Assembly: GCA_024405735.1 (NCBI GenBank)
Contig: JAKSOF010000011.1
Location: 1 to 64,000, forward strand
Source: Victivallaceae bacterium
GTDB taxonomy: Bacteria > Verrucomicrobiota > Lentisphaeria > Victivallales > Victivallaceae
Direction of reading: 5' to 3'
DNA length: 64,000 bases
Part shown: positions 11,235 through 50,715 of the stretch, in pieces
Layout of the letters: every line of letters begins with the position of its first letter
Numbering within the stretch: position 1 is the first letter of the stretch
Translations under genes and position numbers: made by a program
The notes under the pieces: model-generated
Told to the model about the DNA's origin: nothing
The model's database searches: none
Seen by the model: the letters and a program-made list of their open reading frames with translations, nothing else

Positions 11235-11245
11235 ACTCCGACGTG

Positions 11246-11275
11246 CCGGGCATTGAGGAACCTCACGCCGCCCGG
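11246..11275. terminator. Hairpin between convergent genes
   Basis: CCGGGC (11246-11251) pairs with GCCCGG (11270-11275) around an inner TGAG/CTCA stem. It sits between the stop of the plus-strand GH106-like gene (11234) and the stop of the minus-strand small gene (11306). There is no T-tract, so termination would have to be weak or factor-assisted. Confidence 0.35.
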
Positions 11276-11305
11276 AAGTGCCGGAAAAACATTAAGCGCG
11301 CGCAA

Positions 11306-11467
11306 TCAAAACATCTTTTGCTTCAGCGCGTTGAGGCTGAAATCGTATTGCGATTGCGTGATCGCCCCCGTCGCGAGAAAGGTGTCGAGCAACTCCTTTT
11401 GTCTGGCAAAAAGCTTCTGCTTTTTTTCTTCGGGAGAAAGCGCCGACCAGTTTTCCGTTTCCGCCAT
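11306..11467 (-). CDS. Small acidic-basic helical protein, 53 aa
   Basis: A 53-residue protein starting MAETENWSAL. It contains a Pro-Glu-Glu-Lys-rich helix and the segment LLDTFLATGAITQSQYDFSLNALKQKM, which reads like the short SHOCT-type pattern (length around 30, Gly-Ala-Ile-Thr-x-x-x-[YF]-D/E near the end). In known families that motif ends small membrane proteins. GAGG lies six bases before the ATG, and the gene starts 7 bp after the stop of the 64-aa membrane protein, so both are likely translated together. A longer in-frame start at 11497 would overlap the upstream gene and is less likely. Confidence 0.6.
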   Translation of the reverse strand: MAETENWSALSPEEKKQKLFARQKELLDTFLATGAITQSQYDFSLNALKQKMF

Positions 11468-11474
11468 AAGTGCC

Positions 11475-11669
11475 TCAATACCAGCAAAGCGAAACAAGAC
11501 CGGTTCCGACGATCAATAAAGCCGTGATACCGAAAAAGAGCCGCCATTTCCAGTAAAAAAGCTCGGCGCGCATACTTCCGGGAGCAAGCGATTTGCCCGC
11601 AAGCTGGTTGAATCCTCCGGTATGGACATAGCGTTTGACAATGGGTCTTGCGCTGCGCCGCACCGCCAT
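11475..11669 (-). CDS. Small membrane protein, 64 aa
   Basis: A 64-residue basic protein with one hydrophobic helix near the C-terminus (WRLFFGITALLIVGTGLVSLC). It begins immediately after the M42 peptidase stop (TAAATG), a coupling arrangement also seen at 17183. I do not recognise the family. Together with the following 53-aa protein it could make a small membrane complex; a role beside serC or the peptidase is not evident. Confidence 0.6.
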   Translation of the reverse strand: MAVRRSARPIVKRYVHTGGFNQLAGKSLAPGSMRAELFYWKWRLFFGITALLIVGTGLVSLCWY

Positions 11670-48388: not shown

Positions 48389-48655
48389 ATGAACATCTAT
48401 GTGGGCAATCTGCCCTACAGCACCGACCGGGATGAGTTGCGCGAGATTTTTACCGCCTACGGCGAAGTGAGCGCCGCCCGTATCGTCACAGACCGCGAAA
48501 CCGGTCGTTCCAAGGGTTTTGGTTTTGTCGAAATGCCCAATGACGCTGAAGCCAAAAGCGCGATCGAAGCGCTCAACGGCAAAGAGATCGGCGGCCGCAA
48601 GGCCGTCATCAACGAAGCCCGTCCCCGCGAGGAACGCGCTCCGCGCAAATTCTAA
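48389..48655 (+). CDS. RRM RNA-binding protein
   Basis: 88-residue protein made of one RNA recognition motif plus a short basic tail. RNP2 is IYVGNL at residues 2-7 and RNP1 is KGFGFVEM near 42-49; the C-terminus ends RPREERAPRKF. This is the Rbp/glycine-rich type found in cyanobacteria, planctomycetes and other bacteria, which binds RNA and is often induced by cold. The gene has a promoter 220 bp upstream and a strong terminator after it. Confidence 0.94.
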   Translation: MNIYVGNLPYSTDRDELREIFTAYGEVSAARIVTDRETGRSKGFGFVEMPNDAEAKSAIEALNGKEIGGRKAVINEARPREERAPRKF

Positions 48656-48679
48656 AAATTTTTGATCGTGCTCCAGGAA

Positions 48680-48706
48680 AGCCCCGCAATCCGCGGGGCT
48701 TTTTTT
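48680..48706 (+). terminator. Intrinsic terminator of the RRM gene
   Basis: AGCCCCGC (48680-48687), a short loop and GCGGGGCT (48693-48700) followed by a run of seven T. It begins 25 bp past the RRM stop. Confidence 0.92.
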
Positions 48707-48817
48707 ATCCTTCTGTTTAGAGGGGATAACGGGACGATCCTCATCCCGAATTCAAAAAGGAGGATACTTTGGTAAGAAAAACAGGAAGGTTTGCGGAAGT
48801 GCCTGACGGATGTGGAC

Positions 48818-48852
48818 AAGGCAGGGACAGCCGTGCCGGCTTTCCCCGCCTT
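48818..48852. repeat. Imperfect 15-bp hairpin
   Basis: Left arm 48818-48832 pairs with right arm 48838-48852 with two mismatches and a 5-nt loop. It is not followed by a T-tract. Confidence 0.5.
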
Positions 48853-48872
48853 AACCACCCCTTTCCCCGTGT

Positions 48873-48904
48873 GACCGCAGTCAAGACGGATGTGGATATT
48901 CCTC
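48873..48904. repeat. Direct repeat copy 1
   Basis: A 32-base unit (GACCGCAGTCAAGACGG at its left end) that recurs at 49085-49115 with four differences. The 12 bases GACGGATGTGGA inside it (48885-48896) also occur at 48805-48816. Confidence 0.65.
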
Positions 48905-48989
48905 TTTTATTCCCATACGCCTGCGCTTCGTCGTCGCTTCGTTCCTTGCTCCTTCTCGCTCGCGGCTACCATGCTCGTCTACGGTCGCT

Positions 48990-49011
48990 TGCACAAACAA
49001 CTGTTTGTGCA
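48990..49011. repeat. 9-bp hairpin
   Basis: TGCACAAAC and GTTTGTGCA with a 4-nt loop; perfect stem. Confidence 0.6.
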
Positions 49012-49015
49012 TTTC

Positions 49016-49034
49016 CGCATTGCTTTGCAATGCG
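49016..49034. repeat. 8-bp hairpin
   Basis: CGCATTGC-TTT-GCAATGCG; perfect stem, directly after the previous hairpin. Confidence 0.6.
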
Positions 49035-49084
49035 TAAAATCGCTCCCATCCGACTGCGCGCTCGGCGGCAACCGCCTCGCATCC

Positions 49085-49115
49085 GACTGCAGTCAAAACG
49101 TATGTGGTATTCCTC
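49085..49115. repeat. Direct repeat copy 2
   Basis: Second copy of the 32-base unit of 48873-48904 (GACTGCAGTCAAAACG at its left end), one base shorter. Confidence 0.65.
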
Positions 49116-49389
49116 GGTTTTCGCAGTAGCATCTGCGAGGCTACCCTTTGCGAGGGGAGGTGCGCAGATCAGGCAGTCGGGCGGGCGGCTTGTCACGGCG
49201 TAGCCTTGGCGAAGACGGAAGCGGCAGAGCGGAGCATTAGCCCGCGTGGGACGCCCGTCCTCTTTGCGGTAACAAACAGACGAGCCCGCGGAGATTTGCG
49301 GGGATATTCGTTGAGAGTGCGATAAAAGCGTCAGTCCGCAAATATCTGCGGCAGGTACAGATCCCGCCCGTGGCGGGCGCCTTGGGAGT

Positions 49390-49418
49390 CAAGAGGGCGC
49401 GGCGTGAGCGCCCTCTTG
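49390..49418 (-). terminator. 11-bp hairpin downstream of rhaA
   Basis: CAAGAGGGCGC (49390-49400), a 7-nt loop and GCGCCCTCTTG (49408-49418), perfect. It lies 34 bp past the rhaA stop on the minus strand. No T-tract follows in that direction, so rhaA transcription may end here only weakly. Confidence 0.5.
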
Positions 49419-49452
49419 TTCCAGACCACGCAAAATGCTGTGCTATAAAGAC

Positions 49453-50715
49453 TTACTGCCGTTTCAGCAGGACGTCTTTCTCGTATGCGCCGATCGGACC
49501 GAGGATCTCGGCATCGGTCGGCAAATTGCGCGAAACGCAATAGTAGTTCCAGACGGCGCCCCACGGCAACGATTTCATTTCTTCACGCTTGGCGAAACGC
49601 GCGGTGAAATCGCCGGCGTATTCGGCTTCGCAGAGACCGTTTTTCGGCTCGAGGAGCGCGATCAGCAATGCCTTCTGCCAGTTGCGCGCGCCGATGACCC
49701 ACGCGGCGATGCGGTTGATCGACGCGTCGAAGTAGTCAAGCGTGAAAAAGAGGTTGCTGCCGTTGTCGTTGCGGACGGCTTCGCGGCCGAGGTCGAGCAG
49801 ATCGTCGTTGAGGACGAGAACGTGATCGCTGTCCCAACGGACGCCGCGGCTGATGTGAAGCAAAATCCTGCCCTGCTGACAGCAGATCGCAGAAAGTTTG
49901 TCGGCGATCGATTCGGTCGGGTGGAAGTGCCCGGTGTCAAGGCAGATAAGTTTGTTGTGCTTCGCGGCAAAGGTGAGGTAAAAATCGTGCGAACCGACGG
50001 TATAGGCTTCAACGCCGATGCCGAAAAGTTTGGATTCGACGGCATCGAGCAACTGCGTTTCGGGGATCTCCTTGGCAAAAATTTCTTCCAGGGAGGCAAG
50101 CAGACGTTCGCGCGGAGCGCGGCGGTCCGCCGGAATGTCTTTGAAACCGTCCGGCACCCAGACGTTGCTGACGGCGGGCGTTCCGAATTCACGGCCGAAA
50201 GCGGCGCCGATCTCGCGGCAAGCCTTGGTGTGGTCGATCCAGAAACGGCGGATCCCGGCGTCGGGGTGGGAGAGCGAAAGACCGTGATCGAGTTTGGGAT
50301 GCGAATAGTAGACGGGGGCGATGTCGAGCGCGATGCCGCGCGATTTCGCCCAGTCGATCCAGGAAGCGTAATTTTCGACGGAAAGGGTGTCGCGATCCTG
50401 ACCTTTTTTCATAAAATCGACTTCGTGGCTTTGCAGACAGACGCGGTTCTTTTTGCCGGGCAGAAGTTTCAGCGCGGCATCGAGATCAGAACGCAATTCA
50501 TCGGCAGTGCGGGCGCGTCCGGGATAATTGCCGGTGACCTGACAGCCGCCGGTCAATGCGTGATCCATTTCCTCGAAACCGACGACGTCGTCGCCCTGCC
50601 ACGCATGCAGACTCAACGGGATCTCGTCGAGGCGCGCCATCGCCTTTTGGGGATCGACGCCGCAACTTTGATAGACTTCACTTGCCGCCGCATAAAGTTT
50701 TTCCGTCATACTCAT
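49453..50715 (-). CDS. rhaA: L-rhamnose isomerase
   Basis: 420-residue enzyme turning L-rhamnose into L-rhamnulose in the cytoplasm. Family marks: IPLSLHAWQGDDVVGFE near residue 32, VTGNYPGRARTADELRSDLD near 60, LSLSHPDAGIRRFWIDHTKACREIG near 147, LDTGHFHPTE near 255 (metal site) and HISRGVRWDSDHVL near 287. RhaB and RhaD are not adjacent. GH106 at 8.9-11.2 kb may supply the sugar. AAGGAG precedes the ATG and a matching promoter lies upstream. It is the last gene of the minus-strand run before the gene-free region. Confidence 0.95.
   Translation of the reverse strand: MSMTEKLYAAASEVYQSCGVDPQKAMARLDEIPLSLHAWQGDDVVGFEEMDHALTGGCQVTGNYPGRARTADELRSDLDAALKLLPGKKNRVCLQSHEVDFMKKGQDRDTLSVENYASWIDWAKSRGIALDIAPVYYSHPKLDHGLSLSHPDAGIRRFWIDHTKACREIGAAFGREFGTPAVSNVWVPDGFKDIPADRRAPRERLLASLEEIFAKEIPETQLLDAVESKLFGIGVEAYTVGSHDFYLTFAAKHNKLICLDTGHFHPTESIADKLSAICCQQGRILLHISRGVRWDSDHVLVLNDDLLDLGREAVRNDNGSNLFFTLDYFDASINRIAAWVIGARNWQKALLIALLEPKNGLCEAEYAGDFTARFAKREEMKSLPWGAVWNYYCVSRNLPTDAEILGPIGAYEKDVLLKRQ

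Follow-up and report, generated by a model that had tools for sequence, protein, structure and literature searches.

A dispersed, modular and non-coding repeat family at gene 3' ends of a Victivallaceae bacterium, and its association with intrinsic terminators

The window, i.e., the whole stretch of 64,000 nucleotides analysed here (contig JAKSOF010000011.1 of a Victivallaceae bacterium), belongs to a genome of 1.89 Mb in 26 contigs, from an assembly that is 97% complete. This genome is termed G000; other G-numbers denote related genomes and L-numbers denote loci. As claimed in the original prediction, the region 48707-49452 is without genes, being situated between the end of a gene for an RRM protein (48655) and the stop codon of the convergent gene rhaA (49453). 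The RRM gene appears to have an intrinsic terminator of its own at about 48679-48707 (by eye). The RhaA protein of the window shares 94% identity with those of Lentisphaeria bacterium UBA1791 and of G026, the nearest relative, and the sequences downstream of rhaA in G026 and UBA1791 look alike (by eye). The genes and the parts of the intergenic element are as follows.

48389..48655, + strand: gene for an RRM protein, convergent with rhaA
48768..49422, + strand: copy of the whole element, module A then module B; the shared part is positions 109-763 of the 801-bp query stretch, with ends taken from alignments
48768..49115, + strand: module A, found in other places without B (e.g., L005, L006, L009); genome matches and alignment
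48818..48852, + strand: hairpin AAGGCAGGGACAGCCG...CGGCTTTCCCCGCCTT, with compensatory stem changes between copies (by eye, in the alignment of copies)
48873..48904, + strand: internal 32-base direct repeat, copy 1; self-alignment and shuffle test
48990..49011, + strand: hairpin TGCACAAACAACTGTTTGTGCA, conserved among the A copies (by eye and alignment)
49016..49034, + strand: hairpin CGCATTGCTTTGCAATGCG (by eye and alignment)
49064..49076, + strand: hairpin GGCGGCAACCGCC, which is GTCGGCAACCGAC in other copies (alignment)
49085..49115, + strand: internal direct repeat, copy 2; self-alignment and shuffle test
49172..49422, + strand: module B, the core of the family; alignments and covariance model
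49189..49219, + strand: interchangeable hairpin submodule CTTGTCACGGCGTAGCC..GGCGAAGACGG, whose place is taken in other copies by different small hairpins (alignment)
49286..49301, + strand: left arm of the long B stem (covariation helix 1)
49336..49351, + strand: right arm of the long B stem (covariation helix 1)
49363..49377, + strand: hairpin CCCGCC/GGCGGG, being CCAGCC/GGCTGG in about half of the copies (covariation helix 2)
49390..49418, + strand: terminal hairpin, beside the stop codon of rhaA, which faces it (covariation helix 3)
49453..50715, - strand: rhaA (L-rhamnose isomerase; Pfam RhaA, E 1.8e-166), its 3' end adjoining the element

The repeats and hairpins previously described for 48707-49452 were recovered, including those standing side by side at 48990-49034 (by eye). 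The two copies of the direct repeat (48873-48904 and 49085-49115) aligned at 87.5%, and the highest score for an ungapped direct repeat in the region was 17, as compared with 10.7 on average and 15 at most among 60 dinucleotide shuffles. The 12-base word GACGGATGTGGA occurs twice, exactly, at 48805 and 48885, and the 11-base word CATCCGACTGC at 49047 and 49080. RNA folding of the whole stretch surpassed that of shuffled sequences on both strands (z -4.5 on the + strand and -3.1 on the - strand, with 20 shuffles each).

The region belongs to a family of dispersed, modular, non-coding repeats. A search of the genome for further copies had been set beforehand as a test of the prediction, and the whole block was found to recur. 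At least 65 DNA matches to the 801-bp query were detected in the genome, with identities of 67-100% (40 of 87 first-look candidates having been scored), and a covariance model built on the 3' portion of module B yielded 40 full-length copies above 109 bits, together with weaker ones. The elements measure about 0.25-0.9 kb. Modules A and B were observed together, alone (A only or B only) and in inverted combinations, and entire hairpins were exchanged for other hairpins at the same place in the alignment. Seven contig ends are located within 25 bp of a match; the copies thus break the assembly. With its many non-coding copies, its combinations of modules and its enrichment in convergent intergenic regions (described below), the family is a mosaic repeat of the BOX/BIME kind in the broad sense.

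No conserved coding sequence was evident in the family. The longest open reading frame in the gap (48769-49203, 144 amino acids) had no Pfam match at E 0.001, and in nine other copies its frame closed within 71 codons in six cases and at codon 87 in one (L002), and remained open in two. A coding match, named beforehand as the result that would speak against the prediction, was thus not obtained, and a coding reading was dropped, there being no protein family and a frame lost in most copies. No gene was called inside a copy, save for a single run-on call at a contig edge (L013). Dispersal and a position near gene ends would suit the remnant of a once autonomous protein-coding transposon, but the lack of an internal gene, of a Pfam match and of a preserved frame makes such an origin very improbable, as does the absence from the window copy of terminal inverted repeats. 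None of 12 bp or more (9-base seed) was present in 48600-49600, a search that imperfect short ones would escape, and in this respect the copy also differs from a MITE. The suggestion that the region is a decayed mobile element was consequently borne out as regards a dispersed repeat, and not as regards a decayed protein-coding transposon.

The element likewise did not correspond to a known RNA. In the whole window there were no Rfam matches at the gathering score, and loose thresholds gave nothing credible (E up to 5 for the window copy, and up to 0.05 for L155, L045, L099, L109 and L135). The Acido-Lenti-1 RNA motif of Lentisphaerae, which is named in PMC2864571 and included in Rfam, did not match the element, and a search for tRNA and tmRNA genes gave none. 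No sigma-70-like promoter was found in 48707-49452, and no conserved sequence precedes the element among the aligned copies (by eye).

The stems covary. In an alignment of 45 copies from G000, G026 and G008, 97.2% of the paired cells were standard pairs and 12 of 30 pairs had changed on both sides; as the sequences are paralogous and related, these counts do not represent independent events. The covariation score was 0.244 versus 0.098 in shuffles, none of 500 of which reached the observed value, and slid versions of the structure were only 40-51% paired; the alignment had been fitted to the covariance model and therefore leans toward the structure. RNAalifold, applied to the same alignment, retained 18 pairs, 9 of them with double changes. 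The loop words GTAACAAA and GTACAAA were conserved. The covariation among homologues that had been called for as a test of the prediction is accordingly present.

Such covarying stems and conserved loop words, together with an excess of G-U pairs over A-C cells on the + strand (mostly through a single column), would be expected of a structured non-coding RNA that exists in many copies and is transcribed in the direction from A to B. The absence of conserved upstream sequence, of a promoter-like site in the window copy and of an Rfam match argues against this reading, as do modules that occur separately and inverted, and we consider it improbable. Module B folds more stably on the + strand, but shuffled sequences gave an equal difference, which is thus attributable to composition, and module A showed the opposite preference. 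The original proposal of a structured RNA is therefore upheld for structure and covariation and not for a stand-alone RNA gene. As to its third suggestion, a region of unusual replication, none of the observations made here hinted at one. Overall, its interpretation is partly supported; since the structure and its covariation are real and the block is dispersed, its guess of a mobile element came nearest.

The copies are found at the 3' ends of genes. Among 41 clusters of copies in G000, 20 were convergent, 14 were tandem, none was divergent (0 of the 34 classifiable contexts) and 7 were at contig edges; the convergent regions L033 and L034 are each counted twice in these 41, and L015 may be tandem, because its 3' flank shows a gene start (by eye). 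The proportion of convergent contexts (20/34) exceeded that of the gene pairs elsewhere in the window (2/42; Fisher p 2e-7, and 7e-7 once each doubled region is counted a single time), a baseline that comprises one window. Here, as for the clusters and for the relatives below, genes were called by a home-made codon-usage finder rather than annotated. One other convergent gap of notable length occurs in the window, at 11235-11669 (435 bp), where no element match was listed and where small genes may have been overlooked by the simple gene finder.

In 30 of 35 B copies (37 aligned rows minus the partial L014_1494 and L039), a gene running toward the element has its stop codon no more than 100 nt from the terminal hairpin, while the other five (L004, L013, L015, L024 and L030) had no stop-facing gene within 200 nt. 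Similarly, in 13 relatives the nearest gene on the side of the terminal hairpin presented its stop in 54 of 62 cases and its start in 8, with two more matches having no gene in view; this count used 64 of 72 matches, after removal of six duplicate places, one 22.6-bit match and one palindrome echo. For tandem contexts considered separately, a hand count of orientations gave 18 versus 8 to 10, which was not significant (p 0.08 to 0.18).

The distance between stop codon and element was bimodal among the 30 stop-facing copies, with 20 at 1-38 nt and 10 at 56-97 nt. A hairpin followed by TTTT was present in 9 of the 10 long gaps and in none of the 20 short ones. Many of the terminators in the long gaps share a common word, CTGTTGC..GCAACAG. 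Hairpins of this type number 17 in the genome (the reversed control pattern gave 0), and 9 of the 17 lie no further than 150 bp from a copy (binomial p ~1e-12, the copies being taken as 55 places, i.e., the 49 best DNA matches and six others, that occupy 1.5% of the genome). In all nine, according to our own reading of the coordinates, terminal-hairpin sequence was on the terminator side; in one of them (L015) this sequence is an inverted fragment to the left of a module A copy. The terminal hairpin itself carries no U run, and the usual rule would consequently not predict termination by it. Similar CTGTTGC hairpins with varying loops were seen at loci of G021 and G026, and G021 also has GGGGCTGAGCGC... 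Junctions in G021 seem to retain one arm of a terminator (by eye). By analogy with Neisseria, the common terminator word might conceivably serve as an uptake sequence.

Seventeen of the 30 stop-facing gene ends were taken for an ortholog search in G026, and 15 were found. The two species differ in the presence of the element at such ends: in G026, 3 of the 15 carried it (the orthologs of L020, L026 and L028, at 32, 21 and 34 bits), 10 did not and 2 ran into contig ends. For L019 and L027, the G026 end has the terminator without the element, and its homology with G000 extends as far as the T run. At other ends, the G000 copy directly follows the stop codon and G026 has none. In this class G026 has a clear U-run terminator for L021 and L034m (by the detector) and, by eye, for L002; hairpins that lack a U run were present for L025p, L033p (nothing more than a hairpin, at 12 bits) and rhaA, the end of which constitutes a further absence with a GC-rich hairpin; and no terminator of their own was seen for L016p, L007 and L040, the last of which is followed by tRNA-like sequence (by look) and another repeat.

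Beyond G026, the covariance model detected copies in at least 16 of 59 related genomes, all of the same genus (33 members of which were searched), a lower bound because stricter filters were used. A 266-base B query found some match in 27 of the 59, mostly through the hairpin CTTGTCACGGCGTAGCCTTGGCGAAGACGG (window 49189-49219). This hairpin is the most widely matched stretch and recurs in genomes of the order, far beyond the remainder of the element (in relatives, e.g., at L043, L044, L046-L048 and L051-L055); it is probably a repeat unit of its own. Conversely, one subtype of the 3' module was confined, among 137 genomes of the order including G000, to G000, G026 and G008, apart from a single weak match in G032. 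The A-B architecture was recognisable in G026, in a clearly different sequence. Exact searches gave no match to an 18-base core word in viral contigs and none to a 19-base core word in a collection of genome contigs, from which records near the window's genome may be absent; the latter result is consistent with a family that changes rapidly in sequence between species. In G021, near-identical copies occupy different loci: eight loci with different flanks were 94-99% identical over 126-161 bp, and 87-93% identical when 311-414 bp were compared. In five of these eight cases the contig ends no more than 70 bp from the element match.

These comparisons bear on the view that the family is a BIME-like element domesticated at gene 3' ends, selected as a terminator, an mRNA 3' stabiliser or a supercoil site between converging genes and kept similar by gene conversion rather than by movement. 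Placement at 3' ends with none in divergent regions, the 20 of 30 copies in which the terminal hairpin stands where a terminator would be, and compensatory changes are all in keeping with selection, and the sharing of 3 of 15 ends by both species is more than expected if all insertions were recent. On the other hand, the 10 of 15 ends without the element, some of them with a plain terminator only, show that it is dispensable at those sites, and the near-identical G021 copies at different sites also speak against domestication, although gene conversion could give the same. On balance, we consider domestication rather unlikely.

The search for a mobilising enzyme, which covered the Y1 transposase, DDE_Tnp_1 and reverse transcriptase families, identified no candidate that accompanies the element. 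DDE_Tnp_1 was not found in G000, and Y1 transposase was represented there by a broken fragment with two stop codons (L056:1501-1665, i.e., G000:C26:84078-84242; 20.1 bits versus a cut-off of 23). Moreover, in 35 genomes the presence of Y1_Tnp did not follow that of the element, as G009 and G021 have copies without a match and G007 has a match without copies. A REP/RAYT system was rejected, there being no intact Y1 transposase in G000 and a repeated unit of several hundred bp.

Class C group II introns insert just downstream of intrinsic terminators in a fixed orientation. The element shares this preference, and G000 encodes a group II-like reverse transcriptase of 474 amino acids near a contig start (L155:392-1813, on G000:C10; TIGR04416 at 222 bits, cut-off 300; Pfam RVT_1; also matched by the general PADLOC reverse transcriptase model), so that a degenerate group II-type retroelement lacking its reading frame, or a satellite of one, could be envisaged. 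This derivation is nonetheless highly unlikely. Neither the window copy nor L155, L045, L099, L109 and L135 gave a group II match in Rfam at the loose thresholds stated above, no hairpin resembling domain V was seen (by eye), and the enzyme had no maturase domain match. Its gene is about 15 kb from the nearest listed copy in G000, with no copy beside it, and it was not found in G009, G016 and G021, all of which carry copies; the family does not track the element. Thus, the preference for terminators is shared with the class C introns, while group II structure and a linked reverse transcriptase were not found.

Among 73 copies, a flanking duplication was detected once, repeats shorter than about 13 nt being below detection: in G021, the region beside the facing gene is directly duplicated over 75 bp with 92% identity (L105:1195-1269 and 1575-1649), on either side of a copy. 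Other flanking matches resemble internal modules or brief words shared by chance, and within this detection limit no target-site duplication recurred consistently among the copies.

Taken together, it is fairly likely that the family, as a dispersed, non-coding modular mosaic repeat, behaves as a non-autonomous mobile element, which inserts past terminators with a fixed orientation and is able to take their place. The element would move as a unit, with the terminator as its target. It would insert at the 3' end of a gene, often just past the intrinsic terminator and with the terminal hairpin toward it; read from the strand of the gene, this hairpin could become the gene's own 3'-end structure and end its transcripts, and the original terminator would then be lost in many cases as the hairpin took over. 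A stronger version, which is improbable, holds that the element is a protein-free structured entity that seeks terminators, is copied at terminator hairpins and inserts past the T run in one orientation, to take over the 3' end. Recognition or copying might then occur at the RNA or single-strand level, perhaps by a host or trans-acting enzyme, and terminators and elements would turn over together across the genus.

Among known systems, the family most resembles the BOX elements of Streptococcus pneumoniae. The sections of Croucher et al. 2011 (PMC3049150) that deal with them describe composite, intergenic elements with predicted stem-loops in RNA, over-represented between convergent genes and presumed to be non-autonomous and mobile or parasitic. 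As far as those sections go, composite modules, predicted stem-loops, intergenic location and convergent enrichment are common to both families, whereas sequence and phylum differ, and the present elements are distinguished by their larger size, their exchangeable hairpins and their close tie to one type of terminator. BOX elements are also slightly over-represented between divergent genes and their ends have been likened to an insertion sequence (PMC3049150); here divergent contexts are lacking and no link to an insertion sequence was found. In the parts of the same paper on SPRITE, another hairpin repeat of S. pneumoniae, strong enrichment between convergent genes is combined with a terminator-like form and a long U-rich tract; the enrichment and the terminator-like form are shared by our element, and the tract is not. 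REP/BIME repeats, according to the pertinent text of PMC3733652, are palindromic, often in opposite pairs, mobilised by RAYT, and mostly situated after coding sequences, where the neighbouring genes converge or run in one direction. Their placement resembles that of the element, but REPs are 20-40 bp long and carry a GTAG or CGTC tag.

Among the open-access papers listed for Lentisphaerae, Victivallis or Lentisphaeria, none deals with a repeat of this sort, and the family is apparently undescribed, as judged from open-access literature searches only. With it, poorly studied gut bacteria (Lentisphaeria) gain a repeat family that is large, modular and associated with terminators. If the association with terminators reflects targeting, the family would provide a natural system for the spread of protein-free DNA in bacteria and for terminator replacement in evolution, and if terminators are indeed actively sought, it would in effect be a bacterial counterpart of a SINE, aimed at the end of transcription. 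The modular architecture extends to the nearest relative in a further form: at L045:700-1700 of G026, a block resembling module A is tandemly duplicated ahead of a single B (by eye).
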